Positions 6,799 through 28,068 of a stretch of 28,068 bases of DNA are shown one piece after another (the stretch's first letter is position 1; each line of letters starts with the position of its first letter). The stretch comes from a virus. The stretch lies in IMG/VR virus record IMGVR_UViG_3300014911_000022, positions 1 through 28,068 of that record; one strand, written 5' to 3'. Below the pieces are notes generated by a model. The model saw only the letters and a list, made by a program, of their open reading frames with translations, made no database searches and was not told where the DNA came from. The position numbers and the translations under genes were made by a program.

Positions 6799-8028
6799 AT
6801 GGAACTTAATGATCTTGAAATTAAATTTAAAGCTACATACGATGCCTGGTTGAATGGGACAGAGGTGGAGCCAGATAAGGAACTAACAATGAAGGATCTT
6901 GTGACAACCAAACATGCCACGAGATTTGTTCCTAAGGTTGTGCAGACTGTTGTTAGGGATGCACTAGAACCTTCACTTCTGGTTGTTCCCAACTTGTTTC
7001 AACCAATTCGTATGAAAGCCGGACGTACCATCGAGATAGGTGCGCTTGGCGCATTGACAGCCGGATACATTGCAGAAGGTCAGGAATATCCTCAAAGAGA
7101 TCTTTCGATGGATGGTGGAGACATGGTTTCTGTCAGCATTCGAAAGGCTGGTCTCATGGTAAATGTGACCGATGAGGTTATAGAAGAAAACCTTTTTGAT
7201 GTATTTGGTCTTTGGTTAAGGTTAGCGGGTAATGCCCTTGCCAGACTTAAAGAACAGACGGCCATAAGATTGTTAAACGAAATGGGTATAGTCTATTTCG
7301 ATAATGCTAATCCTGGCAATGCTGTTAGAGGATCGACTACTGGTCGGGACGTAACGGGTGCATTCAATGGTTCTATGACACTGAATGACATATTTGATAT
7401 GTTCTCATTTATGGTGCTGAATGGATTCAATCCTGACACACTGATAATGAATCCCCTGGCGTGGGCCATGTTTGCCACTGACCCCGATGTTAGAGAAATA
7501 GTCCTGAAAGGTGCAACACTTGGTTCAAGGAGACTTCCGAATGGTTCTCCGAGTCCAGGATGGGGCACCAGCCATGGAGGATGGGGACTTAGAACGACTG
7601 CTACCGGTTCTGGTACTCCTGATCCTGTGCTTGGTAAAGTAGGGGCCAATCCGTGGGTTCTCAGCACGAATCCTCTTGCTGCTACATTTAATGTGCAGCC
7701 TGAGTATTTGCCTGGTCCGCTCAAAGTTCTCGTATCACCGTGGGTGCCGTATAATTCTACGGATGAAACTACAACGGTAATTCTTGCTGATTCCAGCAGA
7801 GCTGGCGTAATAGTGATCAAGAATGAAGTTCAGACCGAGGAATTCGATGATCCTGCCAGAGATATCAGGAATCTCAAGATAAACGAGAGATATGGGTTTG
7901 GTCTAATGGAACAGGGCAAGGGTCTGGTTGTGGCCAGAAATATAGTTGTAGCCAGAAATTACAACTTCGAGAACCGGAATATGGTTTCGAATCTTCCGGC
8001 CATAGATCAGTCTCAGTCTCGTCCATAA
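6799..8028 (+). CDS. Major capsid protein (HK97 fold)
   Basis: Product of 409 residues that forms the capsid shell. The N-terminal 50 residues are charged and helical, as in the delta/N-arm region removed or refolded on maturation. The pattern that follows is typical of HK97-fold capsid proteins: RFVPKVVQTVVRDALEPSLL, a beta-rich segment with GRTIEIGALGALTAGYIAEG, SIRKAGLMVNVTDEVIEE, and a spine helix with LARLKEQTAIRLLNEMG. The P-domain/A-domain region follows with NPLAWAMFATDPDVREI, and the end has RDIRNLKINERYGFGL. AGGAGG stands 9 bases before the ATG. Its place after protease/scaffold and decoration genes fits. A strong hairpin follows the gene. Confidence 0.85.
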   Translation: MELNDLEIKFKATYDAWLNGTEVEPDKELTMKDLVTTKHATRFVPKVVQTVVRDALEPSLLVVPNLFQPIRMKAGRTIEIGALGALTAGYIAEGQEYPQRDLSMDGGDMVSVSIRKAGLMVNVTDEVIEENLFDVFGLWLRLAGNALARLKEQTAIRLLNEMGIVYFDNANPGNAVRGSTTGRDVTGAFNGSMTLNDIFDMFSFMVLNGFNPDTLIMNPLAWAMFATDPDVREIVLKGATLGSRRLPNGSPSPGWGTSHGGWGLRTTATGSGTPDPVLGKVGANPWVLSTNPLAATFNVQPEYLPGPLKVLVSPWVPYNSTDETTTVILADSSRAGVIVIKNEVQTEEFDDPARDIRNLKINERYGFGLMEQGKGLVVARNIVVARNYNFENRNMVSNLPAIDQSQSRP

Positions 8029-11636: not shown

Positions 11637-13898
11637 ATGGCAACCACAAATTTGCCTGCTGTAATTAGTGATTTTAAAGATGGTAACCTGACGGTTACTA
11701 CTCCAGCGAAAGGCGGAGAATCTGTGCTGTTAATAGGCACGGCAGATGATGGACCTCTTTATGAGCCTGTCAATATAGACGTCATAGAGGATGCCAAAAC
11801 TGTTTTTGGTTCTCCTACTGCTGGTACTCTTATCAGAGGCATTTATGAGGCCTATAATGGATCTCTTGGCAGGAAAGACATTCGAGGGGTTCGTATAGGT
11901 AACGCTAAAACGGCTGTCGCTTACGTGATGCCAAGTGGTGTAGAAGATCCATCTGGCTCTTTCCCGCCGGCAAGCGGGTGGGCCATGAAGCTTGAAGGTC
12001 GCTATCCTGGTGATAAATATAATACCATACAGTTTAGCAGATCTTTGGACACCATAACCATTGCTGGACTTCCGGATGATACAGGCGAAGGTATTACATC
12101 TGTAACATTCAGATATCATCCTGATCTGAGCAAAACCACTGATTATGATGTCCATGACAATGCTGAAATAGTAGATGCGATCAACGCCAATGTTTATACG
12201 TCCAAGTATGTAGTAGCAACTAATAACACGCCTAGGGCAGACTGGTCATATACTATTGGCAGTGAAGACAATCCTGAAGTTGCTAGTTCTTTGGCAAAAG
12301 ATATTCACTATACAACTGTTGATGGAACTGATAGTACGCCGGTTACGGCTATTAATCTTCTCAATATCCATCAAGATGTTGCTGATGGCAGTGAACCTGA
12401 TGCCAGTGTTAGCAACCACGATGATGCTGCAGGGTTTATGCTGCTTTATGAGTTAGATGCTATTACTGCCACTGTTAGCAAGACTGAGAATATACCGGCT
12501 GGAACGAAGACATTCAAACTTAGTTTTGTGCCTGCAAATCCCAGCACGGCCGTATTCAAGGATGCTAATGGTGACACTATATCTATGACATGGGTTAGTA
12601 CTCTGTCCGAGTTGTCACAGCCCGAGCATGCGTATGATACCCATTATTTCATAAGTGGTCAGACGTTAACCTTTGGTGCTACAACCACTGAGAACAGAAC
12701 CATTACGTACACTTATGAGTATACGTTTGTAGAGGGAAGCGATGTTGAGATCAACGAGACATCAACGGTAACGGCCATTAAAGATGTCAACAAAGCATAT
12801 GAAGGCAATAATGACTTGACGCTGGGTGATCTCCGTTGTGTAATAAACTTCATCAATCCTGATACAAGACCAAGTGTTGGTGACACACTTAGTTTATCGT
12901 ATACATATCAAGAGTGGACAGCTGGCAACGGGACTACTGACACTCTGAGTGGCGGTACTGATGGAACAAATATGAGCACATATCAGCTTTATAATGAGCT
13001 TGACACTCTTTATGAGCGTCTTGAGAATTATATAGTTGATTGTGTAGTTCCTCTTGGTGTTTACCTTGATGATACCAAAACAGAATATGATCCCAATGAT
13101 GGGACGACCAGCACGGTTAATGCCGGTTTCCATGGGCAGTTGGATGCATTCTTGAAGAATGTTTCAGTTGCCAACAATGAAACATATGGCATAATTGCTG
13201 TTAGACCACCGGAAAACAGGGATGCTGTTTCTGTTAATCAATGGGTAAACGATCTTACTGTCACGACAGGGTCATCTACGGATCTTAGAGCGGCTAATAT
13301 AATGAATGCTTTTGATTCATTCTATGTTAGTGTAGTAGCTATGAATCCGTGGGTATCTAACAGTGAGTTCCCGATTTATAGTTCGGACGGTGCGGCTCTT
13401 TATGCTGGGAGGATATGTACGCTTCAGCCTCATAGTTCGCCGACTAATAAAGTTGTTGGCGGTGTAGTAGATCTCAGATTCGATTTGTCTAATGCACAGC
13501 TTGAGGCGTTGACAGAAGCAAGATATGTAACTCTAAGGCGAAGGGCCGGTAGGGGTATAGTTGTAACTGATGCAATGACTGCGGCTAATTCATCTAGTGA
13601 TTTCACGAGACTTAGCACTGTCAGGATCGCATTTGCTGCGATGGATGTAGTGAGGTTCGTTGCTGAGCCATTTATTGGTGAGCCAAACACACCACAGCAG
13701 AGGAATGCTCTTGATACGGCGGTCAGCGAGGGACTTGCGGCGATGGTTGAGAAAGGTGCACTACAGGATTATGATTTTGTAGTGACTGCGACCGATGCTG
13801 ATCTAATTAATGGAGACATGGTAGTTGAAATGATATTAGTTCCGGCATTTGAGACGCGCAGAATACGAGTAACAACCAAGCTCGCATTTGCCATATAG
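11637..13898 (+). CDS. Contractile tail sheath protein
   Basis: Product of 753 residues. Sheath subunits polymerise around the tube and contract to drive it through the host envelope. The N-terminus (ESVLLIGTADDGPLYEPV, EDAKTVFGSP, LIRGIYEAYNGS, VRGVRI-like IRGVRIGNAKTA) is typical of sheath proteins. The C-terminal 180 residues are the conserved polymerisation core: NKVVGGVVDLRFDLSN, RAGRGIVVTDAMTAA, STVRIAFAAMDVVRFVAEPF, IGEPNTPQQRNALDTAV and a beta end RRIRVTTKLAFAI. At 753 residues it is longer than many sheaths (often 400-650). The extra length is a beta-rich, Thr/Asp-rich insertion at about residues 150-450 that probably faces outward. AAAGGAG lies 13 bases before the ATG. Confidence 0.92.
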   Translation: MATTNLPAVISDFKDGNLTVTTPAKGGESVLLIGTADDGPLYEPVNIDVIEDAKTVFGSPTAGTLIRGIYEAYNGSLGRKDIRGVRIGNAKTAVAYVMPSGVEDPSGSFPPASGWAMKLEGRYPGDKYNTIQFSRSLDTITIAGLPDDTGEGITSVTFRYHPDLSKTTDYDVHDNAEIVDAINANVYTSKYVVATNNTPRADWSYTIGSEDNPEVASSLAKDIHYTTVDGTDSTPVTAINLLNIHQDVADGSEPDASVSNHDDAAGFMLLYELDAITATVSKTENIPAGTKTFKLSFVPANPSTAVFKDANGDTISMTWVSTLSELSQPEHAYDTHYFISGQTLTFGATTTENRTITYTYEYTFVEGSDVEINETSTVTAIKDVNKAYEGNNDLTLGDLRCVINFINPDTRPSVGDTLSLSYTYQEWTAGNGTTDTLSGGTDGTNMSTYQLYNELDTLYERLENYIVDCVVPLGVYLDDTKTEYDPNDGTTSTVNAGFHGQLDAFLKNVSVANNETYGIIAVRPPENRDAVSVNQWVNDLTVTTGSSTDLRAANIMNAFDSFYVSVVAMNPWVSNSEFPIYSSDGAALYAGRICTLQPHSSPTNKVVGGVVDLRFDLSNAQLEALTEARYVTLRRRAGRGIVVTDAMTAANSSSDFTRLSTVRIAFAAMDVVRFVAEPFIGEPNTPQQRNALDTAVSEGLAAMVEKGALQDYDFVVTATDADLINGDMVVEMILVPAFETRRIRVTTKLAFAI

Positions 13899-13911: not shown

Positions 13912-14091
13912 ATGGCTATAACGCTTAGTTCTTATACGCGAACGTACACCTCGTACTCCGGGGTTGATATAGTCGCACATATAGAGAGTGTAGTTCTTGG
14001 GACCATACAGGGATTATCCTATTCGGTCACAAGAGAGAAAGCACCTATTTATGTGATGGGTTCACCTGATCCCATAGCATTTTCCAGAGGT
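13912..14091 (+). CDS. Tail tube protein, exon 1
   Basis: First 60 codons of the tail tube gene, ending exactly after a complete Gly codon (GGT, 14089-14091). Without splicing, translation would run into the intron and stop at 14107-14109, giving a 65-residue fragment. The encoded text LSYSVTREKAPIYVMGSPDP then FSRG is the N-terminal half of a tube fold. It is recognisable in the paralogue at 15907-16773 (LSYSIHRDKSPVITLGRT). A strong ribosome site (AGGAGGTGAGG) precedes the ATG. Joined to 14969-15454, the product is 221 residues and begins right after the sheath gene, the standard position for a tube gene. Confidence 0.85.
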
Positions 14092-14968
14092 AATGATTTT
14101 GCCTCTTAATTTCGCTAAAAACGGTGGAAGTCCGTAAGGATGACACCGTGGGCAAGGATATTTAATCCAATGCCCGTACAGACTTGAGGTGAATAATATG
14201 GAATATAATTTGAGCCTAATTAAAAAAGATAATGAATTTAAATATTATTTTTTAGGCTTTGTGGCGGGCGATGGTTATATCAGCCGTAAGTCCAACAGGA
14301 TAGAAATAGTATTGAAAGAAGATGATATAGCATTGCTGAGGATGTTCAGAGACATGTTGGCGCCGCATTTAAAGATAAAAAATAGATTGATAGGCGGTAA
14401 ATATAAAGCTTACAGGCTTACTTTTGAGAACAAGGAATTGAAGAAAGAGGTAATGCGATATATCAATACTTCTAACAAAACGAACTCTTTAATTTTCCCC
14501 TACGGTATACCCGATAATTATGTAAAGGATTTTGTAAGAGGATATATAGATGCAGATGGTAATATCGGGGTAAAGAGAGGTCAAAGACTTGTTGACGGAA
14601 ACATAAGATATTATTATGGATTGAGATTAAGAGTTCTTGGGACAAGAGCTTTTCTGCAAGGTTTGACTATGAATTTAAAGAGGTTGTGTTATGATAAGAT
14701 AATGGTTGTTCCACATAAAAAAGGCAAAGAGAATGTATACTATATAGAGTTTGGGTTCTCTGCAGCACAGAGAGTTCTAGACTATATTTATGATGGGGCA
14801 ACATATTTTTTAGAGAGAAAACGTAGGGTATTTGAATATATTAAAACCTCAGATAGCAACGTTCTTGCAGAGAACTATGGGAAACCAGATGGTTGCTATA
14901 ATACGCGAAATGCCGGGTTAGCTTTGGCAAGCTAATTTGGTAAAGATATAGTCGGTTATATAATAACG
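14092..14968 (+). ncRNA. Group I self-splicing intron in the tail tube gene
   Basis: 877 bases. P1: exon end AGAGGT (14086-14091) pairs with GCCTCT (14101-14106), giving the required U-G pair at the 5' splice site. Core helices: ACGGTG (14121-14126) with CACCGT (14144-14149); GGGCA (14150-14154) with TGCCC (14171-14175), extended by GGAT/ATCC, like P6. P7: CAGACT (14179-14184) with the canonical 3' strand in AAGATATAGTC (14943-14953). A TTAGCTT/AAGCTAA hairpin (14918-14935) is a P8 candidate. The homing endonuclease gene lies between the two P7 strands. The last intron base is G14968, giving an in-phase junction SRG|KRGIAGSL that fits the paralogues. Confidence 0.88.
14198..14935 (+). CDS. 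LAGLIDADG homing endonuclease (intron-encoded)
   Basis: Product of 245 residues, a single-chain LAGLIDADG enzyme. It would cut the intronless tube allele at the insertion site and so spread the intron. Two catalytic helix motifs are visible: FLGFVAGDGYIS (about residue 18) and FVRGYIDADGNI (about residue 110). Each ends in the acidic residue that binds the metal (Asp in GDG and DADG), so the enzyme looks intact. GAGGTG lies 8 bases before the chosen ATG; an in-frame GTG at 14189 is part of that ribosome site and less likely. The 3' end of the gene, including its stop, overlaps the intron's P8-like hairpin. It may also assist splicing as a maturase, which cannot be judged here. Confidence 0.9.
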   Translation: MEYNLSLIKKDNEFKYYFLGFVAGDGYISRKSNRIEIVLKEDDIALLRMFRDMLAPHLKIKNRLIGGKYKAYRLTFENKELKKEVMRYINTSNKTNSLIFPYGIPDNYVKDFVRGYIDADGNIGVKRGQRLVDGNIRYYYGLRLRVLGTRAFLQGLTMNLKRLCYDKIMVVPHKKGKENVYYIEFGFSAAQRVLDYIYDGATYFLERKRRVFEYIKTSDSNVLAENYGKPDGCYNTRNAGLALAS

Positions 14969-15454
14969 AAAAGGGGAATTGCAGGCTCTCTTATATTTAC
15001 GGTGTTTGACAAGGCAGCGCTTTCTGAAGTTAAGGCTGGGACGAGATATGTTAGCCATAACAGGGAGGTTATAGGAGAGACTAACAGGAATGCTACAGGA
15101 AGTGATGAACAAATAACTCCAGGAAAAATGGTCGCTGCTAACATACAAGGTACCTACTTAGAAGAGCTTGAAGGAACGGTCATTAATCCTGAGTATGCTG
15201 ATCAGATACCACCGTTCAATATAACTCTTAGTGCTACCAATGAGATGGGCAACGCATCTTACATGAGAGTGCTTGGAGTAGAGATATTGAATGAGGGTTC
15301 AGGCGTATCCGTTGATGATATGGTGCTTGAGAGTCAGATGACTTTTGTATGTCGCAAAATAGTTAACTGGAAACAAGTTGAGGGTAGTCATATCGATGTT
15401 AAGAAGTTGGCTCCCGAAGAAAGTGGCTCTGGTACAGGGGGTATAGCCGTCTAA
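14969..15454 (+). CDS. Tail tube protein, exon 2
   Basis: The remaining 161 codons of the tube gene, read in phase 0 from AAA at 14969: KRGIAGSLIFTVFD, then KAGTRYVSHN, PPFNITLSATNEMGNASYMR, GVEILNEGSGVSVDDMVLES and MTFVCRKI. The region from 15002 on could look like a separate gene starting at GTG, but it has no ribosome site and lacks the tube N-terminus, so it is the intron's 3' exon. Homologous blocks in the two later paralogues are GSMIFAVFD, GVEINDEG and NFTARDI, and VRILSFGQ and TFIARDM. Tube subunits stack as rings inside the sheath to make the DNA channel. A GC-rich hairpin follows the gene. Confidence 0.85.
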   Translation, partial: KRGIAGSLIFTVFDKAALSEVKAGTRYVSHNREVIGETNRNATGSDEQITPGKMVAANIQGTYLEELEGTVINPEYADQIPPFNITLSATNEMGNASYMRVLGVEILNEGSGVSVDDMVLESQMTFVCRKIVNWKQVEGSHIDVKKLAPEESGSGTGGIAV

Positions 15455-15532: not shown

Positions 15533-15892
15533 ATGAATGAATACGACTTTCAGACAGATGCCGAACTTCATGCAAAACTTGACATTGCAGCGAGGCGTAT
15601 CTTGGGCGTATCGGATGACGCGAATATTGAGGAAATCAAGACTGCATTCAGGAAATTGGCCAAAAAGTATCATCCTGATGTGGTGTCGGACTTGGACTCT
15701 GAGTATCTCTTCAAGAATATTGTAAACGCATACGAGTTCCTGACAAAGGGGAAAAACGGCCATTTCAACTTTTTGCGAAATGCTTTGCAAAACAACAATG
15801 CAACAGAGGAGCATTCGCAATTTCCGGAAGATGATTATAATCTGGATAATCTATGGGGTTATTTTCTTTCATGGAGAGATAGATTTTTTTAA
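15533..15892 (+). CDS. J-domain (DnaJ-like) protein
   Basis: Product of 119 residues. Residues about 18-65 are a J-domain: [20 protein letters not shown], then [10 protein letters not shown] with the diagnostic HPD tripeptide that triggers ATP hydrolysis by Hsp70 (DnaK), and a following helix [11 protein letters not shown]. The C-terminus has Asn-rich then aromatic text ([13 protein letters not shown]) and may bind a client. There is no zinc-finger or Gly/Phe region, so it is a minimal J-protein. The ATG has only a weak purine stretch upstream. It sits between two tube-fold genes, so it could recruit host DnaK to tail folding or assembly. That role is inference. Confidence 0.85.
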
Positions 15893-16791: not shown

Positions 16792-17781
16792 CTACTTTTT
16801 CTGTTTTTTCTTCTTCTTGGAACTTTCCCAAAAATCTTTACAATCTCTCATATATTGGGGTTCTTCCTTAATTCCATGCTCTTTCCTGAACTTTTCAGCT
16901 TGGTCTATTAGGTACTGTATCTGAAGCAGTTCTACTGCTGCCCGAAATCTATCTGGATTATTCAGCCATTCGCTTTCTATTTTTATTAAATATTCTTCTC
17001 TGAATCCCAGGTCTCTGCTTTCTTTTTCCCACTTATCATATGCTTCATAAACATAAGCAGGCGCGCCATCGAGTGCCGGCTGAAGGATTTCTGTTCCAAA
17101 GATCATGTCTTCTTTTAATGGGTCCCATCCTGTCGTGCAGTTATGTAATGCAATATAACTATCTGTAATATCATCTACTTTAATGCCCGCTTTGTTGAAA
17201 TAATCCAGTATTTCCTTCTCTTTGTTGAGTCTTTGAGCTCTTTTTTCTGGTGTTATTCCTCCATGGTTTTCTATAGAATAATATTCTTCCAGAAATTTAT
17301 CACGGTTTACAATTATCACGTAATCTATTCCATATATCCTATTTAACACATCGTAGCAATATGCGCTATATAGATTTTTTATGTTTGTTTCTTCTTCCAG
17401 GAATCTTGAAGATCTTCTGCCCATCAATGCTTCTTTGATAGCTTTGTGGCGTTTGGAAAAGGCCATGACTTTGGTACCATCAAGTGTTGCAGGATGTTTT
17501 TTATTTTTGTAATTGGTTAAACCACAAAAAGGATCCATCCCAAATGTTGGTGTCCAGTATGCAACACTTCCATTGACATACATTATCATGTCTTCTTCTA
17601 ATGCATCGAAGATGTAGGCATATTTTACCCTGAATGGGCAATATGGCGCCAGGGTGGGTCTTTTTTCTACTATATATGTTTCTGCTGATGTAGATAGAAC
17701 GTTTGCGAAAATGTTTGCAACTAAAAGGATTAGACATGAGATTCTGATACTTTTTATTCTGGTACTTTTTCTTGTAATCAT
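16792..17781 (-). CDS. Secreted protein of unknown function, antisense to the tail cluster
   Basis: Product of 329 residues. The N-terminus has basic residues, then a hydrophobic stretch (CLILLVANIFANVL) and a likely signal-peptidase site after STSA, so the protein is predicted to be exported. There is no lipobox. The mature part is rich in aromatic and charged residues, has several Cys (YCPF, DPFCGL, AYCYDV, HNCTTG, RDCKDF) that could form disulfides, and ends in a Lys-rich tail (KKKKKKQKK). No family is recognised. AAGGAGG lies 7 bases before the ATG, and a perfect consensus promoter lies 70 bases upstream. This independent unit breaks the tail operon, the hallmark of a moron gene acquired by transfer and possibly expressed outside the lytic late phase. 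Confidence 0.85.
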   Translation of the reverse strand: MITRKSTRIKSIRISCLILLVANIFANVLSTSAETYIVEKRPTLAPYCPFRVKYAYIFDALEEDMIMYVNGSVAYWTPTFGMDPFCGLTNYKNKKHPATLDGTKVMAFSKRHKAIKEALMGRRSSRFLEEETNIKNLYSAYCYDVLNRIYGIDYVIIVNRDKFLEEYYSIENHGGITPEKRAQRLNKEKEILDYFNKAGIKVDDITDSYIALHNCTTGWDPLKEDMIFGTEILQPALDGAPAYVYEAYDKWEKESRDLGFREEYLIKIESEWLNNPDRFRAAVELLQIQYLIDQAEKFRKEHGIKEEPQYMRDCKDFWESSKKKKKQKK

Positions 17782-18024: not shown

Positions 18025-18969
18025 ATGGCTACTAATGGTAATGATATAGAACGATTAAGGAAAGAACTTTTTAAAGCACAGAGAGACGGAGATGATGACA
18101 GATATAACTCATTGCTTAAAAGACTTCGCGAAGCAGAGTTGAATAAGAGGGTTAAAGTTCGATGGAATAATAAGACTTATTTGGCTCCGTATGGTGAAAT
18201 ATATCCGCTTGATTACTATGCTGGGTCTAATGCAGCTATATATTTGGGCAGTCAGTGGATAGATGATATAGTTAGTATACAGTTTACTGGCACTCAGGCA
18301 AAGGCTCCTATCTATGGATATAATTCCACAACATGGGATGGTGTGGCAAGAGGTACCTTTGTTGTCCAGGGAAGTTTTTCTATAGCATTCAGAGAAGTTG
18401 GCTATTTGTATAATATATGGCAAAAGGCTAAAAATAAGGATGGGAAGGAAAAGCTCATGGATTTTTTTGAGAAAGCATGGGAGAATAATACAACTGACAC
18501 TATGCAAGTGCGAACTGATGGAAAGAATAATGATGCGCCTTATATTGATCTTACAGCGGAGGTATTGAAAAAGAGGATTGAGTCATACAAAGATCAGATA
18601 ATGGACAGCAATGTCTTGGATAATATTGATGTGTGTGAGAAATATTTAATGAACAAGTATTGGGGAAATGGAAATACGGAAGGAAAAAACTATCTTCCCA
18701 GACCAGATGAATTTGATAAAGATGCAAATACCAAGGGAAACAATTTTGATATACTTATAACTTATGGTCAGGTAGGTGAACCGGGATCTCGAAGTACGGT
18801 TAAAGCGCTGGTTGATGTAAGGATTTTATCTTTTGGGCAGGTTATACAGCCTACTTCGGATTTTATACAGGAACAGTATACATTCATAGCGCGGGATATG
18901 GACGGAAGGGCGACGAAGCATTTGAGTAGTAATGAATCAGGCTGTAACAAAGGGGGTGAAAACAAATGA
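18025..18969 (+). CDS. Third tube-fold tail protein
   Basis: Product of 314 residues. The N-terminal 40 residues are a short charged helix (DIERLRKELFKAQRDGDDDR). Then come YAGSNAAIYLGSQWIDDIVS, AKAPIYGYNSTTW, VARGTFVVQGSFSIAFRE and, after an insertion of about 90 residues, an end block with ALVDVRILSFGQVI and EQYTFIARDM. These match in order the blocks of the two preceding tube-fold proteins, so it is a third, more diverged copy, probably in the baseplate-proximal tube or hub. The insertion is charged and helical. GAAGGTG precedes the ATG. Its stop overlaps the next start (ATGA). Confidence 0.8.
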   Translation: MATNGNDIERLRKELFKAQRDGDDDRYNSLLKRLREAELNKRVKVRWNNKTYLAPYGEIYPLDYYAGSNAAIYLGSQWIDDIVSIQFTGTQAKAPIYGYNSTTWDGVARGTFVVQGSFSIAFREVGYLYNIWQKAKNKDGKEKLMDFFEKAWENNTTDTMQVRTDGKNNDAPYIDLTAEVLKKRIESYKDQIMDSNVLDNIDVCEKYLMNKYWGNGNTEGKNYLPRPDEFDKDANTKGNNFDILITYGQVGEPGSRSTVKALVDVRILSFGQVIQPTSDFIQEQYTFIARDMDGRATKHLSSNESGCNKGGENK

Positions 18970-19322
18970 GTGAAGAGGTTAAACCTTTAGGCGAAAAAGG
19001 GCCGACGCAAGAATGGATTAACGATGTTAAATCCAAGTATGGTGATATCTACTATGTTTACTTTGATGATGAGCCGGTTGTTTTTAGAACTATAACACGT
19101 AAGGAGTATATTGAAATTATGCAAAGTAGCATACCTACTCCGGACAACCCCGGCGACGATATAGGTGAATCAGAGAATAGACTGGTAGATATGTGCACAC
19201 TATGGCCCGAAAACTATAAGGCAGCCGAAGAGAAGAAAGGCGGCCGGGTTAGCGGCATAGCCCAGTATGTGTTGTATTATTCCGGATTTAATTTCCAGGA
19301 TATTATGCCGCAAAAGCTGTAA
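18966..19322 (+). CDS. Tail assembly chaperone-like protein 1
   Basis: Product of 118 residues overlapping the previous stop by 4 bases, with AAAGGGGGTG upstream. The region KYGDIYYVYFDDEPVVFR, then TRKEYIEIM and CTLWPEN aligns with the N-terminal 85 residues of the next gene's product, so the two are paralogues. A pair of small acidic proteins lying between tube genes and the giant tail gene is the classic place of tail-assembly chaperones, which coat the tape measure before tube assembly. Function is inferred from place, size and pairing, not from a recognised domain. The frame of the next gene overlaps its end from 19261 to 19322. Confidence 0.75.
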   Translation: MSEEVKPLGEKGPTQEWINDVKSKYGDIYYVYFDDEPVVFRTITRKEYIEIMQSSIPTPDNPGDDIGESENRLVDMCTLWPENYKAAEEKKGGRVSGIAQYVLYYSGFNFQDIMPQKL

Positions 19323-19331
19323 CGAAAAGTA

Positions 19332-19365
19332 CCTAAAGAGGGGGCAGAGATGCCCCCTTTTTAGG
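19332..19365 (+). terminator. Terminator-like hairpin between the two chaperone genes
   Basis: Left arm 19332-19346 (CCTAAAGAGGGGGCA) and right arm 19351-19365 (TGCCCCCTTTTTAGG) form 15 pairs with one G-U around a GAGA tetraloop of GNRA type. The stem is GC-rich at its top and its right arm includes five T, as in an intrinsic terminator whose U-tract can also pair. It begins 9 bases after the chaperone 1 stop and partly covers the ribosome site of chaperone 2. It may therefore attenuate transcription, damp translation or stimulate frameshifting. Confidence 0.65.
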
Positions 19366-19380
19366 AAGGAGTTTGAAATT

Positions 19381-20151
19381 ATGGATGATACTTCTCAAGA
19401 TATTCTAAATCTTCCAAAAGACTTCCCTGTTGACATAATAGTAAACATACATAAATGGAAGACCGAATATGGCGCTGTAAACTATGTTAAGTATGAAGGG
19501 ACATACTATGTATACAGAGATTTAACCATGAGAGAGTTTGCAGCACTAATGAGAATGCAGAATTATCCTGAGATTTACATGGAGGATTCTGTATGCAGGG
19601 CATGTGTTTTATATCCGGATGAATCTGTGTGGTCAGCGGGTCTGCCCAAGTTTTTGTCTGCAAAGATAATAGCATCTTCGCCGTTTCAGGAACCGGAAAA
19701 GCTTAAGAATGCGGTGAATAGCGCCAGGGATATGGCTAACTATACTATTATGGACCAGATAGTGGAGCTGATATGTTCTGTTTTCCCATATAAACCGGAA
19801 GAAGTAGAATCTATGCCTATAGAGGTACTTTTCAGACGGCTCGCCATGGCAGAGAGGATGAGTGGCAATATGGTTAAGTTTCCCAGTGATATTTTGTCGG
19901 CAAAAGAGAGAGAGGATGAGCTGATTAGACGACTTCAGAGTGAGGATATAGCAATTCCGGCTCCGCCTGCATCAGCGTTGGCAAATAATATGAAGTCTGA
20001 GTATACAATAGATCAGCTCAGGGATGTCAGTGCGAAGCAGGCATCAAGATCTCTTGCCAAGGCTGTAAAAGAGGGTAAAGAGGGAAAGGCGGTAAAAATA
20101 AATCCGGATTTGGAGCGGGCAATTTGTGAGACAATTGAGGAGAGAGGATAA
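19381..20151 (+). CDS. Tail assembly chaperone-like protein 2
   Basis: Product of 256 residues. The N-terminal part (EYGAVNYVKYEGTYYVYR, TMREFAALM, ACVLYPDE) is a paralogue of chaperone 1. The rest is helical: NAVNSARDMANYTIMDQIVE, then a Met-rich stretch and a charged C-terminus with Lys/Glu repeats. The ATG is preceded by GGAAGGAG at a good distance. The frame is open upstream to 19261, overlapping chaperone 1, but the upstream text has no ribosome site and looks non-coding. Its stop is two bases before the giant gene's ATG, so expression of the pair is coupled. The C-terminal extension could be the part that binds the giant protein. Function inferred. Confidence 0.78.
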   Translation: MDDTSQDILNLPKDFPVDIIVNIHKWKTEYGAVNYVKYEGTYYVYRDLTMREFAALMRMQNYPEIYMEDSVCRACVLYPDESVWSAGLPKFLSAKIIASSPFQEPEKLKNAVNSARDMANYTIMDQIVELICSVFPYKPEEVESMPIEVLFRRLAMAERMSGNMVKFPSDILSAKEREDELIRRLQSEDIAIPAPPASALANNMKSEYTIDQLRDVSAKQASRSLAKAVKEGKEGKAVKINPDLERAICETIEERG

Positions 20152-20153
20152 GG

Positions 20154-23100
20154 ATGCCATTTGGTCCATATGATAATGATATACGATCTCAATATGATGA
20201 AGCCCACCAGGAAGAGCTTTATGCTCCGGAGAGTGCTGGAAGCATACTAGGCTCTGTTTTCAAACAGACGCTTAATCTTGCTATTGGGATGGTAGCATTC
20301 CCCATTATTACCAGCGTAGCAGGTACTGCACAACGCTATGTTGGCGGAACCATACTTCGTGGTCTTAAAGCAGTTACGAAAGGCACTGCACTGGGCGCTA
20401 AATTCCAGGCGGCGGCTCAATTACAAAGAGTTAATGCAGCGGCAGGAAAAGTTACAGAACGTCTTGGTGCGACGCTTCTTGAAGTAACGGGAGTGAGAAA
20501 AGTTACTGAAAAGCTGGGAGCTGCGCTGGGTAATCCCATTGCGGCATATGAAAGATGGCGCAAGGCGCAGGCATCTGCTGCTCCATTCCAAAGACTTGGC
20601 TCTTTTTTTGCGGGCAAGGACGTGGGGACACGTATTTTAGGCAAGGCGGGCCACTGGCTGAAGAATTATGCATCCATGTATCCTGCTTTTTGGGTTGGCG
20701 AGAAGATAATGGGGATGGTTGGGTTTGGCACGCAGGAATCCAGCGAGGAATCCCCGCCATGGTATAATATACCGGCACAGGCGATAGATTTTGGCAAATC
20801 TGCTGTTCTTTCTGCTCCATCGTTTGCGATATGGGGCGGAGGGTTTTCCTTTGCTACGTCTCTTTTGAGTGGATCTTCGAGTCTGACTACCAGGCTTGTA
20901 AAGAGGATGTCTGGAACAAGGTTTATGAGGAAGGTGAAGGAGAATGCTGAAAGGGGTCTTGCTTTTGTCAATGATTTAACCAGAAATGTTACAGCGTTGT
21001 CTGAGGGAATGGATTATTGGCTGGAATACAGAAATGAGTTAAGGGGAAGAATACCGACTATCCAGAGAGTTCAGAGTGAATTAAGTCTTTTCAGGGCCGG
21101 GTGGAGCAAAGGAGTCCGTGTTCCAAGGAGAATTCGTTCTCTTACTCCTGCCGAAATGGCGCTTCAGGATATGGAGCATTTTAAAGCGAGACTCTCCAAG
21201 GGGATGAAGAATGCGTTTGATTTGGAGACTGATCAGGGCAGGTTAAAGTTTTTAGAGGATCTGGATAAACAGAGAAGATGGCAGATATTCAGGGAAACAA
21301 ATAAGAATGAGAGTTTTCTTGAACGGGCGCTTGGTTTGGAGCGTGCTCGTATAGAGGGTGAAGAGCTCAAAAAGTTTATTGGGAACATTGATCTCCAGCG
21401 TGGTCAGGAAATGACGCATGGAAAGGGTGTATATAGGCTGTCATCCAAATATGCCGGACAGCTGGTTGATATAAATAGATTTAGACCCAGAAATATTTTA
21501 GCAAGTGTTTTCAGGGCCATTGGCAATATCAGGGTATCAGGAAAGTGGAAACCTCCGGATCTCGGAATGTTTAGAACGTGGGCGCAGATACTTCATCCAA
21601 GGGGGATAGGTTTATGGCAACCGGGAGAGAACTTGAGGCTTGGTTATCCGTTTAATTTGGAAGAAATTTATGGTGATACATTGACTGAAAAAATTAAATT
21701 GGATGGAACAGCAATGCGCAGGCTGAAAGCTAAGGCTTTTTCTGGTATATATGAGGTTCAGCCAGGTGAGGCTGTTGCTATGAAAGGTAAGAAACTTTAC
21801 AGAGTAAAGCCTGGCGGAACTACAGTAGAGATATCTACACCGCTGGCATATCATTTTATAGCAGACGGAAGAGGGACTTTAATTGATAAGGCTGCATCTG
21901 TTTACTATAATGATGTAAGGAATTTAGCTTATGAACATATTCCTGCAGATCAGGGTCATTTAAAATCTATACACAGAATTGCCCTTGAAAGAAAGTGGGC
22001 TACACTGAACGGAACACAGTTAAAGTATCTTGATCGGAGAAAATCGCTGAAGGGGAAAATCTTAAAGGTGGCAAGGTTTGCTGAAGTTGGTGGCGGCCAT
22101 GGGGGAATTTCGATAATGAGAAGGGCTATAAACTGGGTTGATAAGTTTTTTAATCCCAGATCTAAGCTTCGAATGTTCTCTAAAGGAGGTACTCTTGAGA
22201 GTCTTTATAAAAAGGATTCTAGACTCAACGCATACGAGAGGTTTGGAAGACCCAAAAATCCGGAGGAACTTTATGAAATACTAAAAAGGACCGGGAGATA
22301 TTTAGATGATATTTCTTATCCTGCTATAAGACAGATATTGAAAGATAAACAGGCACTTAGATCATTAGGTATAGGGGTAAATATTGCTGATCCCCACGAA
22401 GTCGTAAGATATCTTAATGAGAAAGTTCCCAACATTTCACGTCCAACAGAAATACAGAGAATAATAGAAAGAATAGAGTCTGAGATGGCTATAAGTAAGA
22501 AGATGGGAGGAAAGCTTTTTGATAAGCGTCTCAGAGGATTTCTCCAGAAGCCTGTGAGAAAGAGAATGGGCTGGGATTTAACCAATCTGGAATTGCTCCA
22601 GAAGTTTATGATAGAACACAAAATACTGGAGAAGGTTGCTCGCGGAGAAGATCGCAAGATAGACAAGGAAGCGCTTTCTGCTATTATTAGAAAAGTTGCG
22701 CGTCCGAAAGCCCGCGAGGCAATAGAAAATCTTACTGTTTCTTCAGCGTTTCAGAATGCTCTGAATAGAATAAGCAGGGGCAATAATAAGTTTGAAACCA
22801 TAGAAGAGTTATTTAATGTGAGTGGAGGTTTCAAACTGGGTGAAGGGGTAGGAGCCGGGAGCATGCCCGAACTTGCGGAGGCAATTGCGCCGATATTTGA
22901 GGGGATTGTAATTCCCAATACAAGGGTATTCAGGAACATAGCAAGAAAAGGCATCTTGAAAGAATTTCCTGATTACAGTTCAGTAAAGCTTCCGGAATGG
23001 GAGAAAATAGATTTAATGGGTGGTACAAGAGACATAATAGTACCTACGGTAGACTCGGTATTTCAATGGCGCAAAAATATATTAAAGGGTCTACAGACAA

Positions 23101-26100
23101 TGGCATCTGATGCGGGGAAATCGGATGAAGAGGCAGCAGCAGCAGCGGATATACTCACGAACAAATGGAGACCATGGCGTTTAATATTTCCGAAGATAGA
23201 GAAGAAGGGTGCTCCTGAAGGATCTGGCGGCATTGGTGTTCATCCGCTTACTATACCTGCGGCCATGACGTATTCGCTTTTTAATAAGTTGAACCGTTTG
23301 GGTGAATTCTTTGGCCTGGGAGTTAATCCTGCAACCACAAGGAATTTGCAGCAGCTTTTATTCAACAAGATATTTCTCAAAAGATATTTGCTGGGAGGCG
23401 GAATTGTTGCAGGTCTTTCATATTTAGACTATCAGATAGATGATGGTTTGTTGTCTCCTCTTTTTGAAAATACTGCATTGGACGAGGGTTTATTTGTTGC
23501 TGGAGCAGAGCAATATGTGAAGGCCAAGCTTGCTGTGAAATATCTTCAAGATAAGGTCGGAATGGTCAGTGCTGCGCAATACCTGGAGGGATTGTTCCCC
23601 GGGATGGTAAACAGTCCTATGTCAAGGGTTGTACAGGCTGTAGGTCCGCCGCTTCTTGGTGCATATGCTGGAACTGCAATGGGTGGTCCTGTTGTAGGGG
23701 GAATTGGTGCACTTGCCGGGGTAGCCATCAGCGGAGTTACAAGTGGATTCGGTATGTGGGATATGACCAAAAGTTATGAGGAAGAACGTGACATTTATGC
23801 GGGGCGACGGGAAGTAGCAATCAGAAAAGGGCGCTGGTGGGAAATGGGACGTTGTGTTCCTCCTCATACTATTATACTTAGAGGCAATGGAGATGTAGTA
23901 AAGGCTGAAGATATTGCTGTTGGCGATAAGCTTTTGACTCATACAGGTGAATTAAAGAGGTGCAAGAGAGTTTTCGTCAGGGAGATGGACGAGGGTGAGA
24001 AGGTTTACAGATTTACGATAGCTACAATAGAAGGACTTCCGTTTGAAGTTACCGAAGAACATCCTCTGTTGGCGGTTAAAGGTTCGATACAGACAGATCC
24101 GGAATGGATTCCTGCAAGATATATTGCCGAGGGAGATTATTTAGTGATGGATCTTCCGGATTTGTCGGGCGGCGAAGATATTTCTTATCTGGATTATCTC
24201 AGAGATATATCTGATCATGATGACTGCTCTGAAGGTCGTATAATAAACATATTGTCACCGGAACTGAGTATTATTAATACGATAAGAAGTATTTTGCTGT
24301 CATACGGTATAGTATCTCACATTATATCTCATAACGCAGGGGAATTCAACGGATGGAGGATATATATTGGCGGCGAAGATGTAAAAAGGTTTAATGATAT
24401 TATTGTTGGTAATATTCCATCTGATTCTTTCTCTGATGCACCCGTATCTCCCGGTGAATATTTTATCTATAATGGAAGATTGTACACACAGGTCAAGAAG
24501 AAAGAAATATCGGATTATAAAGGTAAAGTTATAGACTTCGAAGTTGAGGATGATCACACATTTTGTACTATTGGTGTTGTGCTTCATAATTCTCCCTATC
24601 AGGGCTGTTTAACACCAGATTCAGAGATATGGGTCAATGGTGAATATAAGAGGATAGATCGAGTTAAAAAAGGTGATATAGTAATTAATAGATATGGCAA
24701 AAAAGTGAGAGTTTTAGATATAAAAACTCGCCACGTAGAAAATGAAAAGGTATATGGTATAGTTCCCTCTCATGATAGAACTGAGAAGATTTGGTTAACT
24801 GGCAACCATCCCGTTTTATGCGTTAGATTGAAACCATCTCATGATTATGAATGGATACCCGCCGAAGAACTTACAGATGAAGATTTTTTGGTTTATCCAA
24901 AGTATTCCGAGATTAGTGGCGATGATATTGTGGGGGCGATTGACAGGATTGAGACCAGAGAATATACTGGACTTGTTTATGATATAATGGTAGAGGAAGG
25001 AGAGAGTTTTATTGGGAGAGGGATGGTGTGCCACAATTCGCGGGTTTCGTACTTTAGGCCTGGATGGTTTAGTCGTCTCAAAAGTCAGTATAAATTTACC
25101 CCCACTTTATATGGTAGCAAATCTGAGGCTTGGAGTCACATCCCTCATAACTGGTGGGGCGGATTGGGCACTGTTGCTGATTTAATTATAAATCCCATAG
25201 ATTTTTGGAATAATAGAACATACTGGCAAAGGAAGCATTATTATTCTCGCCCGTATCCCATTACTCAGACTGAATTCCAGAATGTTCCTATATTGGGCAA
25301 TATTTTGGCTGGGCCGGCTGAGCGAATGCATGTTGCTGAGCTGGAAGCTATTTACAGTCAGCCTCCGGTTGCTGCCGGAGATATGATCGGTGGACCTAAA
25401 AGCATGAGTGCAGATTTTCCATCTGTTCCAATAAATCCATACATGGGAGGCAGGATGAGGTATCCTTCACCAAGGTCTCCGGGAGATTTAAGTTATAGGA
25501 TAGGCGAGGCATGGTATAGGGGGATAACGGAACCATGGGGTTTACATGGATTTGCTATTGCTTCGTTGAAGGAAGCCATAACTGGGACTCCGGATCTTTT
25601 CGATAAAATGCCAGTTCTGGAAAATGCCGCCAGGATGACATCGACAGAGCGAGCTTACTGGGACAAAAATTTAGGGGGGATGATGGGCTGTTTAACTCCA
25701 GACATGAGAGTTTTAACAGGAAGAGGGTACGTCAAAGTTACTGATTTGGTTCCGGAAAAAGATTACGTTTTATCCAGTGATGGTAAATTACATGAGCTGC
25801 TGAATTTGATACCAAGAGAGATGGACAACAAGGAGCACGTTATATCCGTTAAGATGATGGGAATGCGACATAGGTTAAAATTGACGGAGGATCACAAAGT
25901 TTTAGTATATAGGAAATGTTCTTTGAGGTTAGAATGGTTGCCCATAAAGGATGTTCAGGAAGGCAACTATTTGGTTTTTCCTGTCCCAGAATATAAAGAA
26001 AGGTTTGTTCCTGATTCTGGAGGTATTAGTATCTATGATGGATTTGTATTACACAAAGTAACGGATAAAACTATAGATAGTTATAAAGGAACAGTTTATG

Positions 26101-28068
26101 ATTTGAGTGTAAAGGATGTTCACGACTTTGTGGTAGAGGGCGTAATAGCTCATAACTCTACAGAATTGTGGAGAAGATATTTCCCCCATCAGCGGAGGCA
26201 GATAGAAAGAGTTAATGAGATACCTAACTTAATGCCGAGTTGGCTTCCAGGAGAAGAGAGTTATTTCGTGGGATACCGAACAGGGGATCCATTTGTGAAA
26301 ATTCAAGAGGGTGAATTAAGGGTCCCTGGCGCAGCCTATGAGGCACTTCATGATGTTAAAATTACATTTCCGCTCAGTGCCAGCAAACTGGGAATGAGCT
26401 ATGGTGATATGGTAAAGTATATGCTGGGGATGTCTACTCCTGCTGAAGTGGAGGAAGAAATGCACATGAAGAGAGGCACACGCCTTCATGAGCAGATACA
26501 GGGGATGTTAGCCAGACAGAATATACTGGAAAAAGCCGAGGCGAAAGTGTATGATCCATATAGTGATGTATCGGGAAGTGTTGATGCAATACTACGGAGA
26601 GGAAATTTGAGAACGGCACTAGAAATAAAGACTACTACCAGCGACAAATTCAATGCTCTCCATTCACCTAAACCCAATCATATGGTGCAGCTAAACTTCT
26701 ATTTATATGCAACCGGTATTAGACATGGAATGTTGCTCTATGTCAATGCGGATGATCCTTCTCAGACTAAAACATTTGATGTTGCGTTTGATCCTGCGAG
26801 GCTGAAAAGGGACTTTGCCAAACTCCGCCGGGCAAGAGACCATGCGACTAAATTACTTCATCAGGGCATAGGACGAACAGTTGTGGGATATTCAAGAGTT
26901 GACAGGCTGAGGGTCATTGGAGATCTAGCACCATTTTCTCAGGATTACAAAGAAGAGCTGGCGAAGGTAAGGGCCCAGATGAGAGCAGGTTTGTTGACAG
27001 AAAAAGAAATAGCTGATGTTAAGGAAACAGTTAGGCAGACCAGAATACAAAAACTGCGCTATGAGATGCACCCATACAGATTTTTAAAGAATGAACCGCC
27101 GGCAGCTCCGGCTGAGTGGAATAGGTACCAGAAGAACAAGTCTGACTACAATGTTGTAGAGAGGACACTGGGTGCGGGATGGGAGTTTGTTACACATCTA
27201 CCAACCCCCCTTCACTCCAAGCTTTTGAATATGCGTTCTCCAATAGAACAGTATAGAAGAACCCAATTGTACGGAAGAGAATGTGTAACGGGGGATGTCT
27301 TGATTGTTACCACCAATGGACATAAACATGCATCGGATATAGAGGTAGGGGATGAAGTTCTAACCAGGTCTGGAGAATATAAGCGAGTAGTGGCGGTTGA
27401 TCCAAAACATATCAGCCAGACAACGGCGAAAGATAAGATATGTCTTATATATGTGGATAATATAAAGTATCCTATTAAAATTACATATAACCATCCAATT
27501 TTGGTTAAGGATATTTCCAGCCCGGATGGATGTGCATGGAAAGATGCAGGTAAAATAACGCTTGAAGATGAGATTGCTTATGTTTCAAGTTCTATAGATG
27601 GCATAATATGGTTGCCTGTTAAGAGAGTAGGTATGGAGAAGTTTGATGGCATAGTCTACGATTTTGAGGTGGAAGATGAACATTCGTTTACTGTTTATGG
27701 TTGCGTGGTACATAATAGTGCGTTCTGGAACAAGCCGTTCCAGGATTTCATACAGCCGTATGTACACTCTTTCCTCGGCTCCGATTCGCCGGTTACAGGT
27801 GCAGTCAGGGGAGCAGAGGCAGGATTTCTTTTAGGTGGTCCCACTGGCGCGATGATTGGTGGTGTTACCGGCACGCTCTGGGGAACCGGCCATGCAGCGT
27901 TCCAGAATGTTACAGGAATAGCATATATACCGGGATACAGGAAGGGAGAGAGGGAGATTTATCAGTATTTTGACAGACTCAAATATATTAAGAACAAGCG
28001 CTTATATGAGCTTACGGGAGAAGAGAAGTACAGGAAGGCATACGAGGGGACGATGGCCGGCGTTAATA
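20154..28068 (+). CDS. Giant virion protein with PD-(D/E)XK nuclease domain and four inteins (3' end missing)
   Basis: An uninterrupted frame of 2638 codons that runs off the right edge. GAGGAGAGAGGATAAGG leads into the ATG. Removing four inteins (residues 1234-1479, 1485-1628, 1846-2001, 2377-2521) leaves 1947 visible extein residues. The N-terminal 1200 are basic, helical and Gly/Ala-rich with hydrophobic patches (about 30-60 and 1160-1200). The extein after intein 3 holds STELWRRYFPHQRRQ, GEESYFVGYRTGDPF, then a PD-(D/E)XK nuclease (about 2100-2240). Two glycine-zipper segments (about 1163-1200 and 2547-2580) are each followed by a Y-rich ER-x-IY or ERE-IY motif. Size, place after the chaperones and membrane-active segments suggest a tail or DNA-ejection protein that enters the host; a tape-measure role is also possible. 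I do not recognise the family. Function is inference; the frame is certain. Confidence 0.9.
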   Translation, partial: MPFGPYDNDIRSQYDEAHQEELYAPESAGSILGSVFKQTLNLAIGMVAFPIITSVAGTAQRYVGGTILRGLKAVTKGTALGAKFQAAAQLQRVNAAAGKVTERLGATLLEVTGVRKVTEKLGAALGNPIAAYERWRKAQASAAPFQRLGSFFAGKDVGTRILGKAGHWLKNYASMYPAFWVGEKIMGMVGFGTQESSEESPPWYNIPAQAIDFGKSAVLSAPSFAIWGGGFSFATSLLSGSSSLTTRLVKRMSGTRFMRKVKENAERGLAFVNDLTRNVTALSEGMDYWLEYRNELRGRIPTIQRVQSELSLFRAGWSKGVRVPRRIRSLTPAEMALQDMEHFKARLSKGMKNAFDLETDQGRLKFLEDLDKQRRWQIFRETNKNESFLERALGLERARIEGEELKKFIGNIDLQRGQEMTHGKGVYRLSSKYAGQLVDINRFRPRNILASVFRAIGNIRVSGKWKPPDLGMFRTWAQILHPRGIGLWQPGENLRLGYPFNLEEIYGDTLTEKIKLDGTAMRRLKAKAFSGIYEVQPGEAVAMKGKKLYRVKPGGTTVEISTPLAYHFIADGRGTLIDKAASVYYNDVRNLAYEHIPADQGHLKSIHRIALERKWATLNGTQLKYLDRRKSLKGKILKVARFAEVGGGHGGISIMRRAINWVDKFFNPRSKLRMFSKGGTLESLYKKDSRLNAYERFGRPKNPEELYEILKRTGRYLDDISYPAIRQILKDKQALRSLGIGVNIADPHEVVRYLNEKVPNISRPTEIQRIIERIESEMAISKKMGGKLFDKRLRGFLQKPVRKRMGWDLTNLELLQKFMIEHKILEKVARGEDRKIDKEALSAIIRKVARPKAREAIENLTVSSAFQNALNRISRGNNKFETIEELFNVSGGFKLGEGVGAGSMPELAEAIAPIFEGIVIPNTRVFRNIARKGILKEFPDYSSVKLPEWEKIDLMGGTRDIIVPTVDSVFQWRKNILKGLQTMASDAGKSDEEAAAAADILTNKWRPWRLIFPKIEKKGAPEGSGGIGVHPLTIPAAMTYSLFNKLNRLGEFFGLGVNPATTRNLQQLLFNKIFLKRYLLGGGIVAGLSYLDYQIDDGLLSPLFENTALDEGLFVAGAEQYVKAKLAVKYLQDKVGMVSAAQYLEGLFPGMVNSPMSRVVQAVGPPLLGAYAGTAMGGPVVGGIGALAGVAISGVTSGFGMWDMTKSYEEERDIYAGRREVAIRKGRWWEMGRCVPPHTIILRGNGDVVKAEDIAVGDKLLTHTGELKRCKRVFVREMDEGEKVYRFTIATIEGLPFEVTEEHPLLAVKGSIQTDPEWIPARYIAEGDYLVMDLPDLSGGEDISYLDYLRDISDHDDCSEGRIINILSPELSIINTIRSILLSYGIVSHIISHNAGEFNGWRIYIGGEDVKRFNDIIVGNIPSDSFSDAPVSPGEYFIYNGRLYTQVKKKEISDYKGKVIDFEVEDDHTFCTIGVVLHNSPYQGCLTPDSEIWVNGEYKRIDRVKKGDIVINRYGKKVRVLDIKTRHVENEKVYGIVPSHDRTEKIWLTGNHPVLCVRLKPSHDYEWIPAEELTDEDFLVYPKYSEISGDDIVGAIDRIETREYTGLVYDIMVEEGESFIGRGMVCHNSRVSYFRPGWFSRLKSQYKFTPTLYGSKSEAWSHIPHNWWGGLGTVADLIINPIDFWNNRTYWQRKHYYSRPYPITQTEFQNVPILGNILAGPAERMHVAELEAIYSQPPVAAGDMIGGPKSMSADFPSVPINPYMGGRMRYPSPRSPGDLSYRIGEAWYRGITEPWGLHGFAIASLKEAITGTPDLFDKMPVLENAARMTSTERAYWDKNLGGMMGCLTPDMRVLTGRGYVKVTDLVPEKDYVLSSDGKLHELLNLIPREMDNKEHVISVKMMGMRHRLKLTEDHKVLVYRKCSLRLEWLPIKDVQEGNYLVFPVPEYKERFVPDSGGISIYDGFVLHKVTDKTIDSYKGTVYDLSVKDVHDFVVEGVIAHNSTELWRRYFPHQRRQIERVNEIPNLMPSWLPGEESYFVGYRTGDPFVKIQEGELRVPGAAYEALHDVKITFPLSASKLGMSYGDMVKYMLGMSTPAEVEEEMHMKRGTRLHEQIQGMLARQNILEKAEAKVYDPYSDVSGSVDAILRRGNLRTALEIKTTTSDKFNALHSPKPNHMVQLNFYLYATGIRHGMLLYVNADDPSQTKTFDVAFDPARLKRDFAKLRRARDHATKLLHQGIGRTVVGYSRVDRLRVIGDLAPFSQDYKEELAKVRAQMRAGLLTEKEIADVKETVRQTRIQKLRYEMHPYRFLKNEPPAAPAEWNRYQKNKSDYNVVERTLGAGWEFVTHLPTPLHSKLLNMRSPIEQYRRTQLYGRECVTGDVLIVTTNGHKHASDIEVGDEVLTRSGEYKRVVAVDPKHISQTTAKDKICLIYVDNIKYPIKITYNHPILVKDISSPDGCAWKDAGKITLEDEIAYVSSSIDGIIWLPVKRVGMEKFDGIVYDFEVEDEHSFTVYGCVVHNSAFWNKPFQDFIQPYVHSFLGSDSPVTGAVRGAEAGFLLGGPTGAMIGGVTGTLWGTGHAAFQNVTGIAYIPGYRKGEREIYQYFDRLKYIKNKRLYELTGEEKYRKAYEGTMAGVN
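23853..24590 (+). mobile_element. Intein 1, with decayed endonuclease region
   Basis: 246 residues (host positions 1234-1479). Starts Cys (CVPPHTIILRGNGDVVKAED), has block B VTEEHPLLAV with the T-x-x-H motif, block F VIDFEVEDDHTFCTIG and block G GVVLHN, followed by Ser. All splice residues are present, so it should be active. About 90 extra residues lie between blocks B and F. The stretch INTIRSILLSYGIVSHII, then WRIYIGGEDVKRFNDIIVG resembles the C-terminal half of a LAGLIDADG (DOD) endonuclease, but no LAGLIDADG helix is left, so it appears inactive as a homing enzyme. Confidence 0.92.
24606..25037 (+). mobile_element. Intein 2 (mini-intein)
   Basis: 144 residues (1485-1628), no endonuclease. 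Starts CLTPDSEIWVNGEYKRIDRV; block B is IWLTGNHPVLCV (T-x-x-H kept); block F is VYDIMVEEGESFIGRG; block G is GMVCHN, followed by Ser. The usual block F His is replaced (EEGESF instead of a D-x-H type), and a Cys precedes the terminal His-Asn. Only five extein residues separate it from intein 1. Splicing is likely, perhaps with altered kinetics. Confidence 0.9.
25689..26156 (+). mobile_element. Intein 3 (mini-intein)
   Basis: 156 residues (1846-2001), no endonuclease. Starts CLTPDMRVLTGRGYVKVTDL; block B is LKLTEDHKVLVY; block F is VYDLSVKDVHDFVVEG with its His; block G is GVIAHN, followed by Ser. It sits at GGMMG/STELWRRYF, upstream of the nuclease domain. All splice residues are present. Confidence 0.92.
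26460..26880 (+). other. PD-(D/E)XK nuclease domain (RecB/Cas4-like) within the giant gene
   Basis: Extein segment of about 140 residues with the full motif set: RGTRLHEQIQ (His2112), VSGSVDAIL (Asp2144), ALEIKTTTS (Glu2157-x-Lys2159) and a QLNFYLYATG helix (Gln2179). Order and spacing match the RecB/Cas4/PDDEXK_1 type, in which Asp and Glu bind the metal and Lys acts in catalysis. This is expected to cut DNA. It lies between inteins 3 and 4. Confidence 0.87.
27282..27716 (+). mobile_element. Intein 4 (mini-intein)
   Basis: 145 residues (2377-2521), no endonuclease. Starts CVTGDVLIVTTNGHKHASDI; block B is IKITYNHPILVK; block F is VYDFEVEDEHSFTVYG with its His; block G is GCVVHN, followed by Ser. 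It sits at LYGRE/SAFWNKPFQDF, downstream of the nuclease domain. All splice residues are present. Confidence 0.92.

Follow-up and report, generated by a model that had tools for sequence, protein, structure and literature searches.

The stretch of DNA that was analysed (hereafter the window) is an IMG/VR record of 28,068 bases, taken whole, from an uncultivated virus related to jumbo phages. Gene calls and family profiles identified a myovirus structural module, which includes the following features:

1065-3260, portal-like gene
3328-5685, ChaB-domain protein
6799-8028, major capsid protein
11637-13898, sheath
starts at 13912, 15907 and 18025, tube paralogues
18966-20151, chaperone-like overlapping frames, upstream of the gene with four predicted inteins

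The frames at 18966-20151 form an overlapping and similar pair and look like the tail chaperonin that phage 0305phi8-36 encodes in two genes. Two of the tail-tube paralogues flank a gene for a DnaJ-domain protein (15533-15892, PF00226 E=7e-15), and one minus-strand gene (16792-17781), whose product starts like a signal peptide and matched no family in the profile search, stands alone inside the plus-strand tail module. The last gene of the window encodes a precursor whose frame is still open where the contig ends, with its 3' end beyond, and its parts are listed below:

20154-28067, plus strand, precursor gene of a large virion (tail) protein, identified by homologues, with four predicted inteins; ATG start, 2638 codons
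20154-23852, plus strand, extein 1, 1233 aa; MTATph1, ME3 and KLEB27-3 align to the C-terminal part
23853-24590, plus strand, intein 1, 246 aa, site J1 (GRWWEMGR/C...HN/SPYQG)
24183-24404, plus strand, putative LAGLIDADG homing endonuclease remnant in intein 1, from PF14528 (E=0.0012) and predicted secondary structure
24591-24605, plus strand, extein SPYQG, five residues between inteins 1 and 2
24606-25037, plus strand, intein 2, mini-intein of 144 aa, site J2 (SPYQG/C...HN/SRVSYF)
25038-25688, plus strand, extein 3, 217 aa, homologous to KLEB27-3 gp31 and MTATph1 CDS0026
25689-26156, plus strand, intein 3, mini-intein of 156 aa, site J3 (GGMMG/C...HN/STELWRR)
26157-27281, plus strand, extein 4, 375 aa, holding a Cas4/RecB-like nuclease domain insertion
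26343-26888, plus strand, Cas4/RecB-like PD-(D/E)XK domain, within extein 4 and not an intein (phrog_1706 E=2.4e-21)
27282-27716, plus strand, intein 4, mini-intein of 145 aa, site J4 (LYGRE/C...HN/SAFWNK)
27717-28067, plus strand, extein 5, 117 aa up to the contig end, which truncates it, with homology to MTATph1 and KLEB27-3 gp33

The original prediction, made from the DNA letters alone, placed four class 1 inteins in this frame, at residues 1234-1479, 1485-1628, 1846-2001 and 2377-2521 of the 2638 codons, and the blocks with their diagnostic residues were borne out exactly. All four begin with Cys and end with His-Asn followed by Ser, and block B reads T-E-E-H, T-G-N-H, T-E-D-H and T-Y-N-H in inteins 1 to 4, respectively. 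The block F Asp is present in every one of them; the block F His is found in inteins 1, 3 and 4 and is replaced in intein 2 (EEGESF), while the other J2 alleles (L093 and L132; L-numbers label the loci of relatives) are both without it too. The block F His is not absolutely required by class 1 inteins.

The intein N- and C-terminal profiles proposed as a check matched as well. PF14890 (Intein_splicing, Pfam) recognised four stretches in the whole protein (E=7.1e-33) and the single blocks with E=8e-7 to 1.5e-11; TIGR01445 (intein_Nterm) matched all four blocks (E=1e-6 to 1.5e-3), with only block 3 exceeding the curated cut-off, and TIGR01443 (intein_Cterm) was above its curated cut-off for blocks 2, 3 and 4. 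Chance or low complexity as the source of the blocks is ruled out by these scores. A profile built from the four inteins found, by sequence search, the PDB inteins Pho RadA, KlbA, PI-PkoII and Spl DnaX. According to the AlphaFold2 models, inteins 1 and 2, the two that were modelled, are predicted to adopt the Hint fold. The model of intein 2 (mean pLDDT 90) has inteins and related Hint domains as its best PDB matches (Foldseek), and that of intein 1 (pLDDT 80), which matches inteins including PI-SceI and PhoVMA, consists of a Hint domain and a single helix-strand-strand-helix unit. The PF14528 match in intein 1 is weak, spans profile positions 26-81 of 82 and contains no LAGLIDADG helix, and the modelled helix-strand-strand-helix unit is read as a decayed LAGLIDADG half. 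None of the four inteins in the window carries a complete endonuclease, since inteins 2-4 are mini-inteins and intein 1 has a half domain; they cannot home by an endonuclease of their own.

While profiles, residues and predicted fold all back class 1 inteins, the decisive evidence comes from homologues that lack the blocks and have contiguous exteins. A tblastn search with the joined exteins found Moorella phage MTATph1, Bacillus phage KLEB27-3 and Acinetobacter phage ME3, none of which has the blocks and all of which run on without a gap across the four junctions. The J1/J2 region (GRWWEMGR/SPYQG/SRVSYF) corresponds to GRYWLFGSRTPWWGSKVDYY in MTATph1 and NRWWVMGGNSWEGSHTKFF in ME3, the J3 region (NLGGMMG/STELWRRYFPH) to NIGGLGGELSEIGRRFLPH and NLGDMAGMGEFQRKIL, and the J4 region (QLYGRE/SAFWNK) to RVYGKDGGDWTRP and QLGGTDAAVWTN. 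The length in ME3 equals that in the window at each junction (NRWWVMGGNSWEGSHT, GDMAGMGEFQRK and LGGTDAAVW), and the sites are empty in an alignment of 16 homologues. The five-residue extein SPYQG aligns to TPWWG, SWEG or TPWQG in homologues without inteins, and the exteins sum to 1947 residues up to the contig end versus 1949 in MTATph1. Blocks conserved as extein in related phages, which would have spoken against inteins, were thus not found.

The host protein had been expected to be a structural or ejected one, and a place in the virion is supported. The homologues in KLEB27-3 and ME3 are annotated as structural, and the gene lies between tail chaperone-like and tape-measure/hub genes. The record of ME3_35 notes homology to a virion protein of 0305phi8-36, and in the 0305phi8-36 paper a single structural gene separates the tail chaperonins from the tape measure; this gene is probably gp145, with numbering taken from accession order. 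By homology and gene position, the host is thus assigned as a virion structural protein of the 0305phi8-36/ME3 type. That the host protein is the tape measure is not favoured, since ME3 and KLEB27-3 have, after its gene and before the hub, a further long gene that matches orf146 (tape measure) of 0305phi8-36. Extein 1 had no match in Pfam or PHROG, and extein 5 is a glycine-rich hydrophobic segment. The Cas4/RecB-like insertion (motifs GSVDAI, EIKT and QLNFYLY) is present in L050, L062 and L083, of the same sub-clade as the window, and absent in MTATph1, KLEB27-3 and L007-L010; a Cas4/RecB-like domain is also located at the N-terminus of the tail-protein homologue in L132 and L092.

Occupancy of the sites was followed in IMG/VR by three alignment-based scans (14, 77 and 77 loci, overlapping sets), and merging near-identical proteins left about 82 distinct homologues, a few of them partial. 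Only alignments led to relatives; direct scans with individual sequences from the window turned up no close one in the collection, and a scan using the four inteins alone returned unrelated inteins only. Fourteen of the about 82 homologues hold 20 inteins at ten sites, with intein ends placed by eye at Cys and His-Asn/Ser or Thr, and with the L083 intein based on its LAGLIDADG domain and ends by eye rather than on a Hint profile match. Sites were equated through a multiple alignment, and the protein evolves fast; J1, J2 and J3 lie within its well-conserved stretches. J1 is filled in seven genes (the window, L009, L037, L079, L082, L089 and L095), J2 in three (the window, L093 and L132), and a C-terminal site, C1, in three (L048, L081 and L089), while J3 and J4 are each filled in the window only. 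The remaining sites are single cases: one codon downstream of J3 (L089), positions 1502 (L083), 1517 (L082) and 1801 (L050), and, in L032, a second C-terminal site. The four inteins of the window are the maximum seen per gene, followed by three in L089 and two in L082. As the +1 residue, Ser follows 19 of the 20 inteins and Thr that of L083; in empty genes the same position is mostly Thr, Gly, His or others (at C1, His in 42). A similar +1 Ser pattern has been reported for haloarchaeal MCM-d (PMC10643990). Since relatives hold inteins at ten places in it, this particle-building gene, and not a usual DNA-copying gene, is by its aligned sequences an intein hotspot across this virus group.

J1 and J2 lie five codons (15 nt) apart, and the window alone has both filled; with seven and three occupancies, this one case of co-occurrence is statistically not informative. 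LAGLIDADG enzymes as a rule recognise sites longer than 15 bp, so that an intein at J1 or J2 should disturb homing into the other. Interference between neighbouring inteins has been described previously (PMC10643990).

Several stages of the homing cycle are preserved in the family. At J1, four alleles (L009, L082, L089 and L095) are full-length, with LAGLIDADG domains and 375-378 aa, the decayed copy of the window has 246 aa, and mini-inteins have 151 and 166 aa; at J2, L093 and L132 have LAGLIDADG domains. In the splicing-domain tree, which has moderate branch supports and long branches, the six J1 inteins other than that of the window group together (91/98), as do the three J2 inteins (88/87) and the three C1 inteins (99/100). 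A single clade for the four inteins of the window is disfavoured at AU p=0.038 (not rejected, at p=0.24, in an earlier run without L132), and so is, by this comparison, their origin through duplication within the gene. A common group of the window's intein 1 and the remaining J1 alleles is neither supported nor rejected (AU p=0.19). The carriers are scattered over the extein tree (10 changes among 78 rows), and L041, the sister of L009, lacks an intein. The C1 inteins of L048 and L081 share 95.8% nucleotide identity (dS 0.17, dN/dS 0.08) versus 72.8% for their exteins (dS 1.6), and identity around the intein drops stepwise on the downstream side only, which is the signature expected of a recent lateral transfer with co-conversion. 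The elements had also been predicted to be still active. As regards homing, this does not hold for the copies in the window (three mini-inteins and one decayed endonuclease), while homing in relatives is indicated by alleles that keep LAGLIDADG endonucleases and by the one recent lateral transfer.

Taken together, we consider it highly probable that four class 1 inteins were inserted separately into a tail protein of the 0305phi8-36/MTATph1/KLEB27-3/ME3 type, and that each should excise itself. In each intein, an acyl shift at Cys1 would be followed by attack of the downstream Ser, and Asn would then cyclise with the help of the penultimate His, after which a peptide bond would join the flanks. 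Splicing would take place four times per chain, including at the two inteins that lie five residues apart, and would leave a mature protein with 1947 residues or more. The four would represent independent homing arrivals instead of copies made inside the gene, and have lost their endonucleases, leaving three mini-inteins and one decayed half. Splicing, its need for the virion and the arrival route of these copies are what we infer from sequence. Splicing activity of all four is likely, because the catalytic positions are intact except for the block F His of intein 2.

It is unlikely that the inteins are retained as a regulatory switch, in which conditional splicing times tail assembly, and are not passive parasites. 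The persistence of four inteins without an endonuclease in one gene would fit such a role, and other inteins do splice conditionally (PMC7156551 reviews the stimuli and proposes conditional splicing for a phage terminase). However, the patchy occupancy (L009 versus its empty sister L041) and the recent lateral transfer fit parasites, and inteins are rarely lost precisely, so they can persist without conferring a benefit. That conditional splicing, notably of the pair five residues apart, gates maturation of the tail protein and serves as a timing device for virion assembly appears quite unlikely.

It is highly improbable that one or more of the inteins are splicing-dead, giving partly unspliced or cleaved protein, or that the contig derives from a defective phage. 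The missing block F His in intein 2 and the decay seen in intein 1 could be taken in this sense, but all four retain Cys1, T-x-x-H, His-Asn and the +1 Ser, and the frame stays open over 2638 codons. Loss of the block F His need not be a sign of decay, because the other J2 alleles, which have LAGLIDADG domains, also do without it, and its absence looks like a property of the J2 lineage.

BIL domains have no conserved +1 nucleophile or C-terminal Asn, and their removal does not restore the host protein. The chance that the blocks are another kind of Hint domain (BIL, pretoxin-HINT or Hedgehog-type), as conserved parts of a processed protein, is negligible and this reading was rejected: weak matches to the Hint_2, PT-HINT and Hint models were obtained and BIL and Hedgehog structures are also among the Foldseek matches, but the best overall score belongs to the intein splicing model, every block has the C-terminal Asn and +1 Ser (HN/S), the flanks are contiguous in homologues, and full-length LAGLIDADG alleles occupy the same sites.

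Other mobile elements were also identified in these phages. The tail-tube gene at 13912-15454 (phrog_9206) is split by an element of 877 nt (about 14092-14968), which holds a LAGLIDADG ORF (14189-14935, 9 kb upstream of the inteins) and a group-I-like AAGATATAGTC at 14943, and joining its flanks restores SRG-KRGIAGS. The element had no Rfam match and is classed, by reading of the sequence, as a putative group-I-like intron. In L093 (2577-4943), the homologous tube gene has an intein (RGQR/C...VHN/TIAGSMIF) about two codons away from where the window has its intron, which suggests that intron and intein target the same conserved motif. The tail gene itself is split by a group I intron of about 1.1 kb in L016 (8239-9404; RF00028 E=2.6e-8, below the gathering score), and in KLEB27-3 (L004, 16038-17136) it is split after MPDW by about 1.1 kb with an HNH-like ORF (RF00028 E=0.025 only). 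Inteins are also found in the class II ribonucleotide reductase, RecA and terminase of L141, L142, L143 and L147, so that the tail gene comes on top of the usual targets in these phages. In related records the class II ribonucleotide reductase has 1658 aa with three LAGLIDADG stretches, and one terminase ORF contains two inteins.

The splicing chemistry is ordinary; the novelty lies in which gene is the host and in how many sites it has. The usual pattern of inteins in replication, nucleotide-metabolism and terminase genes feeds arguments on their spread and persistence, and here a late structural gene without an enzymatic site carries four, with ten sites in the family. Its empty, full-length (endonuclease-bearing), decayed and mini stages of the homing cycle form a natural set for studying site choice by selfish elements, the interaction of neighbours at 15 nt, and the tolerance of a virion protein for four splicings. 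The divergent mini-inteins (144-156 aa) are possible tools for protein engineering, and for annotation the locus is a warning that intein-bearing tail genes hide as 'hypothetical' giants.

Our search of the open-access literature, with subscription papers outside it, returned no account of a phage tail gene with several inteins, and the phage inteins in the publications covered are located in terminase, reductase, polymerase, helicase, PhoH and dCTP deaminase genes. The original statement that multi-intein genes are rare is fair, in view of these phage cases in terminase and DNA-metabolism genes and of the number four being equalled, as far as the account in PMC1635734 goes, by the ribonucleotide reductase of Trichodesmium erythraeum (Liu 2003, via PMC1635734). 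The latter likewise has four class 1 inteins in one gene, but according to that account it is a bacterial DNA-metabolism enzyme, whereas the window has a phage tail protein. The haloarchaeal MCM (cdc21) helicase (PMC10643990) shares neighbouring sites, LAGLIDADG alleles, patchy occupancy and +1 Ser dependence, but is a replication gene with four sites, compared with ten in the tail gene family. The terminases of cyanophage Mic1 (PMC7156551) and the TerL of the crAss-like Delta group (PMC7886860) are likewise phage late genes with several inteins, but they are packaging ATPases with two at most, unlike the tail protein with four. Virion genes are targeted as well in Cluster J capsid and tail genes (PMC3706429), crAss-like MCP genes (PMC7886860) and a tape measure gene (PMC10448857), but by introns in the former two and HEGs in the last, not by inteins. 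Finally, ME3_35, KLEB27-3 gp31/gp33 and MTATph1 CDS0026 encode the homologous extein protein at the same gene position without any intein, and KLEB27-3 has an HNH intron-like interruption in place of inteins.
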